Below, piece after piece: positions 10,860-60,424 of a DNA stretch of 64,000 nucleotides. The translations under genes and the position numbers were made by a program. The stretch is from Chitinophaga pollutisoli. GTDB lineage: Bacteria > Bacteroidota > Bacteroidia > Chitinophagales > Chitinophagaceae. Each line of letters opens with the position of its first letter. Positions within the stretch are counted from its first letter, which is position 1. The notes below the pieces were generated by a model, which saw only the letters and a list, made by a program, of their open reading frames with translations, searched no databases and was not told the DNA's origin. The stretch covers positions 5,362,001 to 5,426,000 of the forward strand of contig NZ_CP149822.1 in NCBI RefSeq assembly GCF_038396755.1. Reading direction: 5' to 3'.

Positions 10860-12314
10860 TTAGGCCATCAGTCCGGGGAGTACTTGTCCCGCAACATCTG
10901 TAAGCCGGTAGCGGCGGCCCTGGTGTTTGAAGATGAGTTTTTCGTGATCGAGCCCCATGAGGTGCAATACGGTGGCATGGAAGTCGTGTACATGCACGGG
11001 ATCTTTGACGATGTTGTACCCGAATTCGTCGGTTTCGCCGTATACGATGCCGGGTTTTACGCCGCCACCGGCCATCCAGATGGAAAAGCAGCGGGGGTGA
11101 TGATCGCGCCCGTAGTTGTCGGCGGTCATCTTGCCCTGGCAGTAATTGGTGCGACCGAATTCACCGCCCCAGATCACCAGCGTTTCATCGAGCAGGCCGC
11201 GCTGCTTGAGGTCGGTGATGAGTGCCGCGGAAGCGCGGTCCACGTCTTTGGCCTGACCGGCCATTTCATTCGGCAGGTTACCGTGCTGGTCCCATCCCTG
11301 GTGGTACAGCTGGATGAAGCGGACCCCGCTTTCGGAGAGCTTCCGGGCCAGCAGGCAATTGGCGGCGAAAGTGCCGGGAACGAGGCACTCCGGGCCGTAA
11401 AGCTTGATGATGTCGTCCGGTTCCTTCGACAAATCGGTCAGTTCCGGCACCGCCGTTTGCATCCGGTACGCCATTTCATATTGCTGGATCTTGGTGCTGA
11501 TTTCCGGGTCGCCGAACTCCTGGTACGACTGGTCGTTCAATGCCGCCAGCTGGTCAAGCATCTGCCGCCGGTTGGTGGAATCGATGCCGTTGGGGTTGTT
11601 GAGGTACAGCACGGGGTTGTCGCCGCTGCTGAACTGCACGCCCTGGTGGATGCTGTCGAGGAAGCCGTTGGTCCAGAGCTTGGAGTACACGCCTTGCCCG
11701 TTGCCTTTCCCGCGGGAAAGCAATACGCAAAAGGCCGGCAGGTTCTTGTTTTCGCTTCCCAGCCCATAACTCGCCCACGACCCGAAGCTCGCACGGTTGC
11801 CCTGCTGCGCGCCGGTCTGGAAGAACGTCAGCGCCGGATCGTGGTTGATGGCTTCCGTGAACATCGACCGCACGATGCAGATGTCGTCCACGATTTTAGC
11901 CGTGTGCGGGAAGAGGTCGCTCACCCAGGCGCGGGCCTCGCCGTATTGCTGGAAGTCGTAATAGGAGCCGACGAGGGGGAACGACGATTGTCCGGCCGTC
12001 ATCCCCGTCAGCCGTTGCCCCATGCGGATGGAGGCGGGGAGTTCCTGGCCCATCATTTCGCGGAGCTTCGGTTTGTAGTCGAAGCTCTCGAGCTGCGAGG
12101 GCGCGCCATTTTGAAAGAGGTAGATCACCCGTTTGGCCTTCGGAGCGAAGTGCGGCACACCTGGCATGAACGCGGCCTCGCTTTCGCTGCTGCTACCGAA
12201 GAGGTCGGGGATGAGCAAAGATCCCAGCGCCACGCTTCCTACACCCAGGCTCAGGTTCGAGAGGAATTTGCGGCGGTTCATGTTGAGGTGGCGCTCTATG
12301 AATTCGTTTTTCAT
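10860..12314 (-). CDS. DUF1501 family protein (Tat-exported, sulfatase-like fold)
   Basis: 484-residue member of DUF1501, a family common in Planctomycetes and always found near cytochrome-type DUF1549/DUF1553 proteins. The ATG at 12314 is chosen because it gives MKNEFIERHLNMNRRKFLSN, with an NRRKFL twin-arginine motif and a hydrophobic stretch. Family features seen: APKAKRVIYLFQNGAPSQLESFDYKP near the start, LFPHTAKIVDDICIVRSMFT, GVRFIQLYHQGWDQHGNLPN, VIWGGEFGRT, GRDHHPRCFSIWMAGGGVKPG and HVHDFHATVLHLMGLDH. These conserved D/H/G blocks recall alkaline-phosphatase-superfamily metal sites, but no activity is established. It is the second gene of the operon, 29 bases after the DUF1553 gene. Confidence 0.9.
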   Translation of the reverse strand: MKNEFIERHLNMNRRKFLSNLSLGVGSVALGSLLIPDLFGSSSESEAAFMPGVPHFAPKAKRVIYLFQNGAPSQLESFDYKPKLREMMGQELPASIRMGQRLTGMTAGQSSFPLVGSYYDFQQYGEARAWVSDLFPHTAKIVDDICIVRSMFTEAINHDPALTFFQTGAQQGNRASFGSWASYGLGSENKNLPAFCVLLSRGKGNGQGVYSKLWTNGFLDSIHQGVQFSSGDNPVLYLNNPNGIDSTNRRQMLDQLAALNDQSYQEFGDPEISTKIQQYEMAYRMQTAVPELTDLSKEPDDIIKLYGPECLVPGTFAANCLLARKLSESGVRFIQLYHQGWDQHGNLPNEMAGQAKDVDRASAALITDLKQRGLLDETLVIWGGEFGRTNYCQGKMTADNYGRDHHPRCFSIWMAGGGVKPGIVYGETDEFGYNIVKDPVHVHDFHATVLHLMGLDHEKLIFKHQGRRYRLTDVAGQVLPGLMA

Positions 12315-12343
12315 GATGCGATTATTTAGGCTGAACGGAGGAT

Positions 12344-14656
12344 TCAGGTTTTGGATAACGTTTCTTCGAGGTTGTAGATGGTGGTAATGACCTGCATCAT
12401 CGCCGCCCACGACGGTTTGTCAAGCCCCTCTGCCTGGGGGTACTCCCCATGTTGCAGGAGCTTCGCGGCTTCGGCGGGGCGCGACTTGAACCATGACTGC
12501 TGCTGCGCATAGTATTTGGCGAGCACATCCATTTCCTTCAGCGATGGCGTTCTGCAAACGATACTGCGGAAGGCCTGGCGGATATTTTTTTCCGCATCGC
12601 CGCCCTGTTGCAGTAATTTCCCCGCATACACGCGCGAGGCTTCCAGCACTGTGGGGTCGTTGAGCATGATGAGCGCCTGCAATGGCGTATTCGTAGCCGA
12701 GCGCTTTACTTCGCACTGGTCGCGGTTGCTGGCGTCGAACAGCATCATGGATGGCGGCGGCACCGTTCTTTTGATGAAGGTGTACAACCCGCGGCGGTAC
12801 AAACTTTCGCCGTGATCCTGCCGGTAAGTGGCGAGCTGCCCCCTGCCGGAAGTAGCGAGTTCCCACAATCCTTCGGGCTGGTAAGGTTTCACGCTGGGCC
12901 CGCCGATGGTGTGCACGAGCAATCCGCTCGATTCCAGCACAAGGTCGCGCACCATTTCGGCCGGCAGCCGGAAACGCGGGCCGCGCGCCAGGTAGATATT
13001 ATCCGGATCGGCTTCCAGCTTGTCTTTGGAGATGGTGGCAGATTGCCGGTAGGTTTGTGACATAACCATCTGTTTCATCAGTCTTTTCATATCCCAGCCA
13101 TGATTCATGAAATCCACGGCGAGCCAGTCGAGCAACTGCGGGTGGCTGGGCAGGTCGCCCTGCATCCCGAAATCGCCCGTGCTTTTGACGATACCTTTGC
13201 CAAACACCTGCTGCCACATCTGGTTAACGAACACGCGGGCCGTCAGCGGGTTTTTAGGATCGAAGAGCCAGGAAGCCAGCCCCAGCCTGTTGGAAGGATA
13301 GGTGGCGTTGAACGGCATCACGGAAGCGGGTGTGCCGGGCTGCACTTCGATGGTGGGATTGTCGTACACGCCGCGCCCCAGCACAAAGGTTTTCCGGACT
13401 TCTTCCTGGTCGCCCATAACAGACACGATGAGCCGGTTGGTATCCTGCTGGTTAATGAATCGGAGCGTTCCGGCCAGGTCTTCTTTCGTGATTTCCATGT
13501 AGGGCTTCTTGGCGTACGTTTCCGGCCCGCCCACGGTGGATTCAAGCCCTACTTCCTTCACGTTGTTGAAGAAAGCGTACAGCTCGAAATATTCTTTCTG
13601 GGAGAAGGGGTCGTATTTATGATCGTGGCACTGGGCGCACTCCATGGTGATGCCGATGAGGCTTTTACTGAAGGTATTGGCGCGGTCGAGCACATACGAC
13701 ACGCGGTATTCCTCGTCGATAACGCCGCCTTCTTCGGTGATTTTATGATTCCGGTTGAAGCCCGAAGCCAGCAGCTGTTCGCGCCCGCCGTCCGGCATCA
13801 TGTCGCCGGCGAGTTGCCAGGTAACGAAATCTTTGTAGGAGAGATTTTTATTGAAGGCGTAGATGACCCAGTCGCGCCAGGGCCACATGGTGCGGATGTT
13901 GTCGTCCTGGTACCCGTGGGAATCGGCGTAACGGGCAACGTCCATCCAGTGGATGGCCATTTTTTCGCCGTAGGCGCTGTCGGCCAGGAGCTCGTCTACC
14001 ATTCGCTCATATCCTTTTTCGGTGGTGTCTTTGGCGAAGCGTTCCATGCGCGCGGCGGAGGGCGGGAGGCCGGTGAGATCGATGCTGAGGCGTTTGAGGA
14101 GCCGTTCGCGGTCGGCCTGCGGGTTGGGGGCGAGGCCTTTTTCTTCCATGCGGGCGAGCACGAAGCGGTCGATTTCATTGCGGGGCCATGATTCGTCGTC
14201 AACCGCGGGGAGGGCGGGGGAGGCGGGAGGAACGAACGCCCAGTGGGGTTTATATTTCGCGCCCTGTTTGATCCATTTTTCGATCATTTTGATTTCATGG
14301 GCGTTGAGCGCCATGTTGGATGTGGGCGGGGGCATGCGCAGGGAGCTGTCTTCGGTGGTGATGCGCAGGTACACGGCCGATGCCCTGGGGTTCCCGGGCA
14401 CGAGGGCGTGCAGATCGGGCGATTCCTGCAGGGCTTTGTAGGCGCTGTCCGCAATGTCGAGCCGCAGTCCGGCTTCGCGCTTGTTGGCGTCGGGGCCGTG
14501 GCAGGCGAAACATTTGTCGGATAATATCGGGCGGATATGGAAGTTATAATCGACGGAATCCGGCATCACTTCGGCGGTATGTTGCTGCGAGTGGGTGTTG
14601 CAGGAAGAAAATGCGGCGGTGAGGCCGATGGCAAAAATTACATAACGATGGAACAT
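12344..14656 (-). CDS. PSCyt1-DUF1549-DUF1553 planctomycete-type cytochrome protein
   Basis: 770-residue exported lipoprotein (FSSC, Cys19) and first gene of the operon. Domain order: PSCyt1 with heme motif C49-F-A-C52-H53, in DKCFACHGPDANKREAG, and a likely distal Met in RMPPPTSNMAL; DUF1549 (PSCyt2) at about residues 155-370 (WPRNEIDRFVLARMEEKGL, RLSIDLTGLPPS, CAQCHDHKYDPFSQKEYF); and DUF1553 (PSD1) at about 435-700 (NRLGLASWLFDPKNPLTARV, SHPQLLDWLAVDFMNHGWDMK, RGLYTFIKRTVPPPSMMLFD). The second CxxCH (CAQCH) suggests a second heme. This family is most abundant in Planctomycetes and Verrucomicrobia. The exact reaction is unknown. Confidence 0.93.
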   Translation of the reverse strand: MFHRYVIFAIGLTAAFSSCNTHSQQHTAEVMPDSVDYNFHIRPILSDKCFACHGPDANKREAGLRLDIADSAYKALQESPDLHALVPGNPRASAVYLRITTEDSSLRMPPPTSNMALNAHEIKMIEKWIKQGAKYKPHWAFVPPASPALPAVDDESWPRNEIDRFVLARMEEKGLAPNPQADRERLLKRLSIDLTGLPPSAARMERFAKDTTEKGYERMVDELLADSAYGEKMAIHWMDVARYADSHGYQDDNIRTMWPWRDWVIYAFNKNLSYKDFVTWQLAGDMMPDGGREQLLASGFNRNHKITEEGGVIDEEYRVSYVLDRANTFSKSLIGITMECAQCHDHKYDPFSQKEYFELYAFFNNVKEVGLESTVGGPETYAKKPYMEITKEDLAGTLRFINQQDTNRLIVSVMGDQEEVRKTFVLGRGVYDNPTIEVQPGTPASVMPFNATYPSNRLGLASWLFDPKNPLTARVFVNQMWQQVFGKGIVKSTGDFGMQGDLPSHPQLLDWLAVDFMNHGWDMKRLMKQMVMSQTYRQSATISKDKLEADPDNIYLARGPRFRLPAEMVRDLVLESSGLLVHTIGGPSVKPYQPEGLWELATSGRGQLATYRQDHGESLYRRGLYTFIKRTVPPPSMMLFDASNRDQCEVKRSATNTPLQALIMLNDPTVLEASRVYAGKLLQQGGDAEKNIRQAFRSIVCRTPSLKEMDVLAKYYAQQQSWFKSRPAEAAKLLQHGEYPQAEGLDKPSWAAMMQVITTIYNLEETLSKT

Positions 14657-50712: not shown

Positions 50713-53124
50713 TCACTCCGTCCGCAGGCTTTTCACCGGGTTGGCGTTCGCCGCCCGGAAAGTTTGCACGAATATCAGCACCGCCGTAACCGCCGCCAGC
50801 GTGATAAACGCTGCGATGAACGGATAGGGTGTGATGTTGACGCGGTATACATAATCGTTCAGCCAGAAGTTCATGATGCAGTAAGCCGCGGGGATGGCCA
50901 CGATCATGGCCACCACGATCACTTTCAAAAATTCCTTCACAAACAGGGTGATGATTCCGCCGACGGAAGCCCCCAGCACTTTGCGCACCCCGATCTCTTT
51001 TGTCCTTTTCTGGATACTGAAAGAAATGAGGCCCGTCACTCCGAGAAGCACAATCACCAATGCCAGTCCGGTAGCCGTGTATGCCGCATATTTCAGCCGG
51101 AGCTCCGTATTGTACATGCGTTCCAGCATTTCGTCGGTGAATTTGTATTCGAACGGCGTGCCGGGCATAAGTGTTTCCCACTTTCCGCGGATAGCCTGCA
51201 TTTGCTCACCGATTCCTGCTCCGGGAGCGAGTTTTAGCGACATGTACCGGTAAATGTTAGTGGCGGAAGGATGTATGAACACGATCGGTTGCACCGCCTG
51301 CTGCATCGTGGAGAAGTGAAAATCTTTCACGACCCCGGCTACCGTTAATGTTGCGCTGAAACCCGCCACGCGGATCTGTTGCCCAATGGCTGCCGTCGCA
51401 TTTTCCCATCCGAAGCGGCGTGATAAGGTTTCGTTGATCACAATGGCGCCGACGGGCGTTTGGTGCCCGGGCTCGTTGAAGAACCTGCCCGCCGCCATCT
51501 GCATGCCGTAAGTCTGGCCGTAATATTCATCGGCGTAAAGCTGGTACGTTGTGATGGCGTTGGCGGAATCCCTGCCGTTGCCGAACACATTGATGCTGCC
51601 GCCGTTGTTGCCGTCCGGAATTTCGAAAGATAGCGACGCGGATTGCACCTGCGGCAATTGCGACAGTTGGCCGCGGATGTTTTGCATCCGCTGGTAACCT
51701 TCAGGCGTCCAGTCGCGGGGGAGCGGAATGGAAACGAGCCGGGATTTTTCGTAGCCCAGCTGGTTACTGAAAAAGAGCTGTACCTGCCGGGTGATGATCA
51801 ACGCGGCCACCAGCACCACCGCCGCCGTGAGATATTGAAATCCGACGAGCGATTTGCGCAGGCCGGTTTTTTCGTGGGATGATTTTAGCTTGCCTTTCAG
51901 CGAATCCGTTACCCGCATCGACGACAGCACGAAAGCCGGGTATAACCCTGCCGCAAGCCCCGTCAGCAGCACGAGCGCGAAAGGGAATGCGATGAAATAG
52001 GCAGGGAAATCCGCCAGTCCAGGCAATTCCTTTCCCAGCAGCTGTCCGCATGGCCCTTTCACGGCGAAATACAAGCCGATCCCTACTGTCGCGGCCAGCA
52101 TCACCAGCATGCCCGATTCCAGCAGGAACTGCCAGATCAGCTGCTTCCTGCGCCCGCCCAGCGCTTTGCGCACCCCGATTTCCTTCATTCGGGACGAGGC
52201 CCTGCTCACCGAAAGGTTCACAAAATTGACGATCGCCATCAGCAGGATAAACAACGCAATGCCGGATAGCGTATACAGCATTCGCTTTACCAGGCCGTTG
52301 CCGCTGTTGAGGTAGAATTCCTGCAACGGCACGGCCACGACGTTTACCTGCGCCGCCGTTTCCGCCCCGGTATGCCGCCGCACCAGCGATGCAATAGGCT
52401 TTTCCAGGTCGGTGGCGGTTACGCCATCGCGGAGCTCCACCATATTTACAATGAAGGGATTGTTCCAGGTATTCATCTCACGGCCGAAGAAGGGAAGGGC
52501 TGCGGCGGAGAGGAAAATACCACTTTCGTTCCGGGCATCCAGGCTGTTTACGCTGTTTTTCGCCGGTTCTTCGATCACCGCGCCTATCGTGAACAACTGG
52601 CGTTTGCCGGCGAAGTTGGAGATGTCGAGCGTTCTTCCCGCCACATCTTTTTCCCCGAAAAACTTCTCCGCTATCGTGGCCGTGATCACTACCGACGCCG
52701 CATTGTCCAGCGCATGCGCGGCATCGCCCGACAACACTTCGAACCCATACATTTTCAGCAGGGTGCTATCACCCACCTGCATGCCTTCGCGGAAAGCTTT
52801 GCCGTCCACATTCACCTGGCCGGTAATACCGTCCCACCGGTAATATTGCTCCACCAGCGTGGGGTATTCCTCTTTCAGCGCCACGGCGAGGTTGCCGAAA
52901 GTGGCCAGTTCGAAGCCCATGTTGGGATCTTTCCACTTGCTGAGCAGGATATGCTGGCGGGAAGCATTCTTCAACCCACGGTTCACCTGCAGCTCGCTCC
53001 AGACGTACGCCAGCACAAGCATGGCGAACGCAATGCCGGTAGCCAGCCCGGTGATGTTCAGGATGGAATGGAAGCGGTGCTTCAGCAGGCTTCTTTTCGC
53101 CGTTTTGATGTAGTTGGTGAGCAT
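50713..53124 (-). CDS. FtsX/MacB-type ABC transporter permease
   Basis: 803-residue inner-membrane permease. The ATG at 53124 (MLTNYIKTAKRSLLKHRFHS) begins the standard MacB_PCD leader; the frame stays open upstream but only through the regulatory region. The layout is TM1 (ILNITGLATGIAFAMLVLAY), a periplasmic MacB domain at about 50-265, an FtsX domain with three TMs at about 275-400 (FILLMAIVNFVNLSVSRASS, RMKEIGVRKALGGRRKQLIW), a second periplasmic domain, and a second FtsX domain at about 675-800 (FSIQKRTKEIGVRKVLGASV). Such permeases pair with a separate ATPase in export or stress pathways. No ATPase gene lies in the window. A sigma-54-like promoter precedes it. Confidence 0.93.
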   Translation of the reverse strand: MLTNYIKTAKRSLLKHRFHSILNITGLATGIAFAMLVLAYVWSELQVNRGLKNASRQHILLSKWKDPNMGFELATFGNLAVALKEEYPTLVEQYYRWDGITGQVNVDGKAFREGMQVGDSTLLKMYGFEVLSGDAAHALDNAASVVITATIAEKFFGEKDVAGRTLDISNFAGKRQLFTIGAVIEEPAKNSVNSLDARNESGIFLSAAALPFFGREMNTWNNPFIVNMVELRDGVTATDLEKPIASLVRRHTGAETAAQVNVVAVPLQEFYLNSGNGLVKRMLYTLSGIALFILLMAIVNFVNLSVSRASSRMKEIGVRKALGGRRKQLIWQFLLESGMLVMLAATVGIGLYFAVKGPCGQLLGKELPGLADFPAYFIAFPFALVLLTGLAAGLYPAFVLSSMRVTDSLKGKLKSSHEKTGLRKSLVGFQYLTAAVVLVAALIITRQVQLFFSNQLGYEKSRLVSIPLPRDWTPEGYQRMQNIRGQLSQLPQVQSASLSFEIPDGNNGGSINVFGNGRDSANAITTYQLYADEYYGQTYGMQMAAGRFFNEPGHQTPVGAIVINETLSRRFGWENATAAIGQQIRVAGFSATLTVAGVVKDFHFSTMQQAVQPIVFIHPSATNIYRYMSLKLAPGAGIGEQMQAIRGKWETLMPGTPFEYKFTDEMLERMYNTELRLKYAAYTATGLALVIVLLGVTGLISFSIQKRTKEIGVRKVLGASVGGIITLFVKEFLKVIVVAMIVAIPAAYCIMNFWLNDYVYRVNITPYPFIAAFITLAAVTAVLIFVQTFRAANANPVKSLRTE

Positions 53125-53150
53125 GGTGACAAGTTGCGCCAGTGGTGGCG

Positions 53151-53165
53151 GCAAGCGGCATGCCA
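53151..53165 (-). promoter_or_regulatory. Sigma-54 (-24/-12) type promoter for the FtsX permease
   Basis: Read on the minus strand this is TGGCATG-CCGC-TTGC, matching TGGCACG-N4-TTGC at 10 of 11 positions, with GG and GC exactly 10 bases apart. Transcription would start near 53139, about 15 bases before the ATG at 53124. Confidence 0.6.
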
Positions 53166-53218
53166 GGAGCGCCGGTTCAGCAGGGGCGCACCTTCCGGGG
53201 AAGCGGCCCGGCCTGAAA

Positions 53219-53255
53219 TGTCCGGAATCGGACAGGCGCCGTGCAGGTGCGGACA
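53219..53255 (-). promoter_or_regulatory. Palindromic upstream activating site and half-site
   Basis: TGTCCGGAATCGGACA at 53219-53234 is a palindrome with 6-bp arms and a 4-bp centre, about 88 bases upstream of the predicted start. A further CGGACA half-site at 53250-53255 lies 21 bp (two helical turns) beyond the CGGACA arm. The spacing suits an NtrC-type activator acting on the sigma-54-like promoter. Confidence 0.5.
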
Positions 53256-53821: not shown

Positions 53822-56650
<2,829 letters not shown>

Positions 56651-59719: not shown

Positions 59720-60424
59720 TCATTTTTTTAGCAGCCGGTCGCGCAGCAGGCGTTCCAGTACGGACTCCCGCAGGGTGCGTGACAAGGGCACCTGTAACTT
59801 TCCCAGTTCGATCACGTTGCCTTCGATCCCCGTGATTTTCGCGGAGTTGACGATGTAGGATTTGTGGATTTGCAGGAAAGGAGGATCGGGAAGATGTTCC
59901 AGCACGGATTTCAGCGTGGCATGGGTGATGAACATCCCGGCCGCGGTATGGATGCGCACGTAGTTTTCCATGCCTTCCACATAGAGGATATCCGCCCATT
60001 CGATCCGCACGAATTTATCATCGGTACGGATGAAAAGGTGATCGGCTGCAGGAGCGGAGGATTGCGGCGACAGGACGTCCCGCGCGCGGTTTACGGCTTT
60101 CAGGAAACGTTCGAAGGATATGGGTTTGAGGAGGTAATCCACCGCTTCCAGTTCGAAACCTTTCAGCGCGTATTGTTCGAACGCGGTGGTGAAGATAACT
60201 TTTGGCGGCCGCGCGAGGCTTTTGAGGAGATCGATGCCGCTGATGTAGGGCATTTCGATGTCGAGGAAGAGAAGATCGACTTCTTGGGTGCGCAGGAGCT
60301 CGTTGAGATCCATGGCGTTTTCGCAGACGCCGGCAAGTTCCAGGAAAGGGATCTGTTCCACATATCCCCGGAGGCCTTTGCGGGCCTGGGGCTCATCGTC
60401 TGTAATCGCGCAGCGTATCTTCAT
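59720..60424 (-). CDS. LytTR-family response regulator
   Basis: 234 residues. The receiver domain at 1-118 has the acidic pocket D9, D10, phospho-acceptor D55 (LLFLDIEMPYISGIDLL), T80 (IFTTAFEQYAL) and K100 (DYLLKPISFERF). The LytTR DNA-binding domain is at about 130-232 (DHLFIRTDDKFVRIEWADIL, YVEGMENYVRIHTAAGMFIT, FLQIHKSYIVNSAKITGIEG). It is the partner of the histidine kinase whose stop overlaps this start by four bases (ATGA). LytTR regulators bind paired direct repeats about two helical turns apart; a candidate pair lies before the operon. Confidence 0.94.
   Translation of the reverse strand: MKIRCAITDDEPQARKGLRGYVEQIPFLELAGVCENAMDLNELLRTQEVDLLFLDIEMPYISGIDLLKSLARPPKVIFTTAFEQYALKGFELEAVDYLLKPISFERFLKAVNRARDVLSPQSSAPAADHLFIRTDDKFVRIEWADILYVEGMENYVRIHTAAGMFITHATLKSVLEHLPDPPFLQIHKSYIVNSAKITGIEGNVIELGKLQVPLSRTLRESVLERLLRDRLLKK

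Follow-up and report, generated by a model that had tools for sequence, protein, structure and literature searches.

Background

In NtrC-type two-component systems the signal passes from the kinase to the regulator, DNA is bent and the promoter is opened at the expense of ATP, which is textbook behaviour. The C-terminal helix of such regulators reads DNA. The MacB/FtsX superfamily includes some proteins that act without transport or in mechanotransmission. Chitinophaga, the host of the region analyzed here, is a soil bacterium.

A link between sigma-54 and FtsX permeases is already in print. In a survey (PMC12316311, PLoS One 2025) sigma-54 promoters were predicted before COG0577 FtsX-type permeases, and their enrichment on these permeases in gamma-Proteobacteria, Opitutia and Bacteroidia was called first evidence. 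The terms "palindrom", "upstream activat" and "Chitinophag" are absent from the main text of this survey, and its passages on COG0577 genes name neither an activator nor a site. In the full-text literature searched, which was mostly outside subscription papers, we found neither the site and its tandem phasing nor the activator and the genus-wide target set that are described below.

To this we add the analysis of a permease gene in a stretch of 64,000 nucleotides of C. pollutisoli (here named the window). Based on sequence comparison, it is highly probable that the region 53124-53255 carries a sigma-54 promoter together with a tandem activator site, and that the regulator encoded at 3479509-3480852 activates this permease, an operon next to the regulator gene and a set of scattered permeases.

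Results and discussion

The permease gene of the window

The features of the window and the gene of the candidate activator are given in Table 1. Two stretches each of PF12704 (MacB periplasmic core) and PF02687 (FtsX) were found in the 803-aa protein by Pfam search, which gave no ABC_tran domain. The protein carries two coupling-helix-type motifs and no Walker A motif. Its sequence relatives in the PDB are 5xu1_M, 3is6, MacB 5gko, 5nik and 5lil. Three MacB-type ATPase queries (E 1e-5) found no MacB-type ATPase in the 64-kb window.

A mechanical ORF call started the gene at a GTG and gave 847 aa. This was rejected as too long, since the orthologs align from residue 1 at the ATG. Two other genes of the window may be mentioned. 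A 942-aa fusion of FAD-linked oxidase, 4Fe-4S and cysteine-rich domains at 53822-56650 is directed away from the permease, and the region 59720-60424 encodes a LytTR-type response regulator with Response_reg and LytTR domains.

Table 1. Features of the proposed switch and the genes connected with it. Positions refer to the window unless preceded by C1.
Feature	Position	Strand	Remarks
Double MacB/FtsX permease, 803 aa	50713..53124	minus	start is the ATG at 53124
Sigma-54 -24/-12 element TGGCATGCCGCTTGC	53151..53165	minus	read directly; conserved form before orthologs and paralogs
Site B, proximal candidate activator site, perfect palindrome TGTCCG-N4-CGGACA (TGTCCGGAATCGGACA)	53219..53234	strand-neutral	read directly
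Site A, distal candidate activator site, imperfect palindrome TGTCCGCACCTGCACG (minus-strand letters)	53240..53255	strand-neutral	from sequence
NtrC-type response regulator	C1:3479509-3480852	minus	PF00072 receiver, PF00158 Sigma54_activat, PF02954 HTH_8

Promoter and tandem palindromes

The original prediction had placed a sigma-54-like element on the minus strand 26 bases before the ATG. The element TGGCATG-CCGC-TTGC was read directly at 53165-53151; it contains GG-N10-GC, and its last C lies at exactly that distance from the ATG. From this we infer a transcript start near 53139, 12 bases after the TTGC. The 16-bp palindrome had been described as centred about 88 bases before the predicted start, and this distance was confirmed when taken from the inferred transcript start. 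Counted from the ATG, the centre of site B is 102 bases upstream. An extra half-site had been noted 21 bp away as well. It corresponds to the CGGACA at 53250-53255, which is the better half of the imperfect site A. Site A matches 9 of 12 consensus positions, and its spacing from site B is 21 bp. The distance between the start of site A and the base preceding the TGG is 89 bp.

The strict promoter form TGGCA-N6-TTGC, as proposed initially, is present in the window. As a general description, however, it is too narrow. The pattern that is conserved reads (T/C)GGCA(T/C)-N5-TTG, and its -12 base varies: in the promoters of the operon and the orthologs the -12 C is often replaced by A, G or T.

The regulator and its operon

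The gene of the candidate activator is followed by a histidine kinase gene. Divergent from it runs an operon of HlyD, ABC ATPase, FtsX, a second FtsX, a second ATPase and a TolC-type gene. In the C. pollutisoli locus (L062) the second FtsX is split over two frames (approximately 11774-14245; C1:3485.8k-3488.2k). The best-scoring solved relatives of the regulator are ZraR (1ojl) and the NtrC-family structure 4l4u. A single rpoN is present in the genome (one PF04552 match, E 3.1e-53), together with eight strong and six weaker matches to sigma-54 activators. Among the eight strong ones, the C-terminal helix motif LGL(S/T)R(A/S)ALYRR(M/L)EKYN was found only in the two that are linked to FtsX/HlyD genes; the other six differ in this helix.

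Orthologs of the regulator with at least 75% identity were present in all 40 genus genomes, one of them split over two contigs. A scan of named genomes with the regulator gave Chitinophaga species for the nearest matches. Out of 80 matches 38 regulator loci were inspected, of which 32, all from Chitinophaga, could be scored. The loci L224, L226, L228, L229, L230 and L232 were partial, distant or had no HlyD start. In all 32 loci the intergenic region that separates the regulator from the divergent HlyD keeps the tandem site and TTGGCA(C/T)-N5-TTG, with the tandem spacing fixed at 21 bp in the script and the sites taken as best matches; in L222 the second site is weak. Measured freely, the distance from site A to the promoter was 89-90 bp in 21 and 99-100 bp in 11 of the 32 regions. 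These two classes are one helical turn apart. Motifs, spacing, conservation, co-location with the regulator and the presence of rpoN are in this way direct results of computation.

The tandem site in the intergenic region of the C. pollutisoli locus (L062, 6854-7167) is common to the regulator's own gene, and autoregulation is therefore possible. In the direction of the regulator this region showed no good in-register sigma-54 promoter.

Exact palindromes across the genus

The exact palindrome was found 60 times in 22 of 25 genus genomes (C. pollutisoli included); the reversed control gave 32 in the same 25 genomes. These palindromes, like the loci counted elsewhere in this study, are not independent events, since the genomes share ancestry. 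No copy was present in 15 genomes from other families of the order.

All 60 were fetched with their flanks and compared by tblastn with 12 queries from the C. pollutisoli genome. In 51 cases the palindrome points at a double-FtsX permease relative (40) or at the HlyD gene of a transporter operon (11), with 60-182 bp between its centre and the extrapolated gene start. Five of the 11 HlyD genes are of the first operon type with the regulator on the other side, and six are of a second type.

The remaining nine palindromes were not located before FtsX/HlyD genes. Four of them (L130, L138, L144, L158) follow a stop codon at a distance of 4-19 bp and possibly represent terminator hairpins. In L130 and L138 (1501-1516), which come from two genomes, the same MFS-like gene ends 4-5 bp before the palindrome; in L144 and L158 the distances are 12 and 19 bp, from the stops of other genes. 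One sits inside a gene (L091) and another 136 bp before a gene (L137). One small gene (MSHIVIPIPPLPGKQEIEVEV...) follows the palindrome in both L086 and L147 (1501-1516), which come from two genomes, and may be a non-FtsX member of the regulon. The last one (L164) is located 47 bp before an ORF that also adjoins a one-mismatch site of the C. pollutisoli genome at 5760490 (L013). L013 with one mismatch and L164 with an exact copy (both 1501-1516) carry the palindrome before the same secreted-type gene in two genomes, which could be another non-FtsX target.

The second type of HlyD gene leads to the question which regulator uses the sites. At L063 (C1:237000-256000) there is another HlyD-TolC-ATPase-FtsX-FtsX system, accompanied by an NtrC-type regulator of its own that has a similar C-terminal helix. 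The palindromes might belong to this paralogous regulator (system at C1:243.9k-253.5k), or both regulators might share the sites. The C-terminal helices of the two are nearly identical, and six of the 60 exact palindromes precede the HlyD gene of the second type. Against this, the first regulator is present in 40 of 40 genus genomes, whereas second-type matches, which share 42-46% identity with the query, were found in 17 of the 40 with the E cut chosen. Furthermore, the tandem footprint is kept in the intergenic region of the first regulator at 32 loci, in a cross-genome comparison that covers the first regulator alone. We therefore regard use of the sites by the second regulator as rather unlikely, and favour the first regulator as the activator.

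Permeases not selected by motif

A sample independent of the motif consisted of 60 permeases (rows 15-74 of the similarity list), for which 350 bp upstream were fetched and the last 250 scored. The scoring model was built on the 32 regulator/HlyD intergenic regions. Since these are loci of other genomes, the window was excluded from the model. For these regions and for the window a tandem spacing of 20-22 bp was allowed, the spacing in the window being 21.

The 99th percentile of 600 shuffles was exceeded by 41 of the 60 upstream regions and the 95th by 47; 19 missed the former threshold and 13 the latter. By their coordinates, at least four of the failing regions (L314, L335, L340, L360) directly follow another operon gene. 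Within the 41 passing regions the spacing of 89/90 bp recurred in 27, with nine spacings allowed, and 35 had 89-90 or 99-100 bp to the promoter. The GG at -24 was present in the best register of 32 and absent in nine; the full GG-N10-GC was found in 10. Exact palindromes occurred in three of the 60 regions (L313, L325, L341).

Orthologs of the window permease with 40-90% identity were inspected by eye. Palindromes or half-sites of the CGGACA/CGAACA type together with a GGCA(T/C) promoter, 29-52 bases before the start, were seen in 10 of 13, and a palindrome with at least 10 of 12 positions in six of these 10. The switch was absent before the orthologs L106, L111 and L112. Loss of the motifs before orthologous permeases had been named as a point against the original prediction; most orthologs keep both.

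A scan for palindrome and promoter before FtsX permeases, suggested with the same prediction, was run here in modified form and supports a regulon. The genus-wide targets, the spacing and the unselected permeases are in agreement with the proposed sigma-54/NtrC-type regulon and with the palindrome as its putative activator site. The label "envelope-stress or antimicrobial-export" is only suggested, by the co-regulated HlyD-ATPase-FtsX-TolC-type operon.

Regulator loci outside the genus

Matches to the regulator at E <= 1e-125 were present in 24 of 198 genomes of the class (C. pollutisoli included). We analyzed 32 loci from outside the genus, 29 from this class-genome scan and three from a scan of named genomes. 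A kinase match was found in 27, and HlyD, ATPase or FtsX on the opposite strand in 20. Within 350 bp before the regulator a palindrome with at least 10 of 12 positions was present in 13 of the 32 loci (0.19 expected from shuffles) and absent in 19. In L276, L277 and L278 a TGGCAC-N5-TTGG promoter follows 88, 87 and 88 bp after the palindrome start, the corresponding measure in the window being 89, and L282 has two palindromes 22 bp apart. The C-terminal helix motif was seen in 11 of 12 relatives read from outside the genus, with L281 differing. Given these sites before the regulator in part of the loci, the circuit looks older than the genus, with a code that only some of the relatives show clearly.

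Permeases and ATPases

In nine chosen genus genomes there were 14-55 MacB_PCD matches per genome, single-FtsX proteins included. ATPases related to the first ATPase of the operon at E <= 1e-45 numbered 3-6 per genome in 16 genus genomes. In these 16 genomes 22 of 95 permeases among the matches listed had an ATPase of this class within 10 kb, and 73 had none; the count is confined to ATPases at E <= 1e-45. Coupling-helix-type motifs were present in both halves of 27 of 30 permeases read, a Walker A pattern in none of the 30. The first ATPase of the operon is 91-100% identical in 16 genomes. At regulator loci with full-length matches its identity is 92-99.6%, and that of HlyD 67-99%.

Since 73 of the 95 listed permeases have no such ATPase nearby, a shared ATPase is an interesting reading. 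One sigma-54 two-component system would switch on dozens of scattered orphan double-FtsX permeases, which would all share the one or two ATPases of the operon next to the regulator. The result would be a modular exporter whose substrate subunits can be exchanged, perhaps with a common adaptor and outer-membrane channel. The ATPase counts and the conservation fit many permeases sharing one ATPase and are no proof of it; we propose this only tentatively.

The same numbers can be read differently, with the window permease as a non-transporting or mechanotransmission protein instead of part of an efflux pump. The absence of a MacB-type ATPase from the window search and from the 10-kb surroundings of most listed permeases would agree with this. 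However, the coupling-helix-type motif in both halves of nearly all proteins read and the co-regulation with the HlyD-ATPase-TolC-type operon speak for transport, and a role outside transport seems doubtful to us. This alternative concerns the function of the permease, not the switch.

Tests against chance in the C. pollutisoli genome

In the 6.08 Mb genome, a single contig, TGGCAY-N5-TTGC had 18 matches and its reversed control 36. The exact palindrome was found three times (reversed control one), and with up to one mismatch 17 times (reversed control 14). Taken singly, neither the sigma-54 pattern nor the palindrome showed a convincing excess over the reversed controls in this genome, and single motifs were rejected as evidence. 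A palindrome with one mismatch, at 237628, is located within an ORF and was taken as chance. In this genome the motifs are convincing by their combination, their spacing and their conservation, whereas single motifs are not.

With tandem site and promoter in register, the region upstream of the window permease scored above 300 of 300 dinucleotide shuffles. It ranked second of 168 ORFs of the same genome, which were scored in 18 stretches. Six of the 168 had a score above 0, and all were permease, HlyD or regulator genes: HlyD, the window permease, the regulator, two other double-FtsX permeases and the HlyD of the second system. The regulator ORF owes its score to the site shared with HlyD; its best-register promoter is poor. 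Three single-FtsX genes (in L075, L076 and L077) scored -22 to -29, and no high switch score was obtained for the operon-internal genes at 4827k, 3483k and 247k.

The permease at 867k was scored apart, since its likely start is inside the ORF; its score was reached by none of 300 shuffles. Two seemingly broken permease genes with fragment matches only, at 6003k and 5722k, had high scores as well (0 of 300 shuffles). The scores at 4283k, 5722k and 243.9k derive from the tandem sites, and the in-register promoters are poor. With real ORFs the null distribution is wider than with shuffles, as five of 162 other ORFs of the genome pass the 99% cut. This background is still far below the 41 of 60 permease upstream regions.

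One of the broken genes deserves mention. In L065 (C1:6000000-6006500) the seemingly broken double-FtsX permease keeps an intact-looking switch near 6003653-6003689, consisting of two palindromes 21 bp apart and TGGCAAGGTGCTTGC, with the spacing as in the window. We read this switch as a regulatory fossil or a sign of recent loss.

As an alternative, an unrelated repressor or activator could have its operator in the palindrome, with the sigma-54-like element matching by chance. This would agree with the lack of a convincing excess of single motifs, but is very improbable given the two spacing classes one helical turn apart, the recurrence of 89/90 bp in 27 of the 41 high-scoring unselected regions, and the location of the sites beside the gene of a sigma-54 activator both within the genus and beyond it.

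The proposed circuit

We propose the following order of events for a sigma-54 switch under the first regulator. The histidine kinase would phosphorylate the NtrC-type response regulator, and an oligomer of the phosphorylated regulator would bind a pair of TGTCCG-N4-CGGACA-type palindromes whose spacing of 21-22 bp corresponds to two helical turns. Bending of the DNA would then allow the regulator to contact sigma-54 RNA polymerase at the -24/-12 element, where ATP hydrolysis would open the promoter for transcription of the permease. The same switch would turn on the HlyD-ATPase-FtsX-TolC-type operon and many scattered double-FtsX permeases together. Binding by the regulator at 3479509-3480852 and activation are what we infer here from sequence comparison.

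In this way a specific switch and a candidate activator can be named for a numerous and little-characterised family of Chitinophaga permeases, together with a DNA code that can be read, which makes the regulon predictable from sequence. The published statistical link between sigma-54 and COG0577 is turned into a concrete proposed circuit. It also raises the question of what powers permeases that lack their own ATPases.

Comparison with known systems

The proposed circuit resembles NtrC/ZraR-type systems in the receiver, Sigma54_activat and HTH_8 domains of the regulator, the adjacent kinase and the tandem palindromic site upstream of a -24/-12 element. It differs from them in its putative targets, which are many scattered permease genes and an efflux-type operon, in the site TGTCCG-N4-CGGACA and in the variable -12 base.

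The likeness to MacAB-TolC and other MacB/FtsX transporters lies in the PDB sequence relatives and in the operon with HlyD, ATPase, FtsX and an outer-membrane factor. Unlike MacAB-TolC, the window permease combines two permease copies in one chain without an ATPase domain, and the three queries (E 1e-5) found no MacB-type ATPase gene in the window. Compared with the passages on COG0577 genes in the survey (PMC12316311), the Chitinophaga analysis adds a site and a candidate activator to the sigma-54/COG0577 link.
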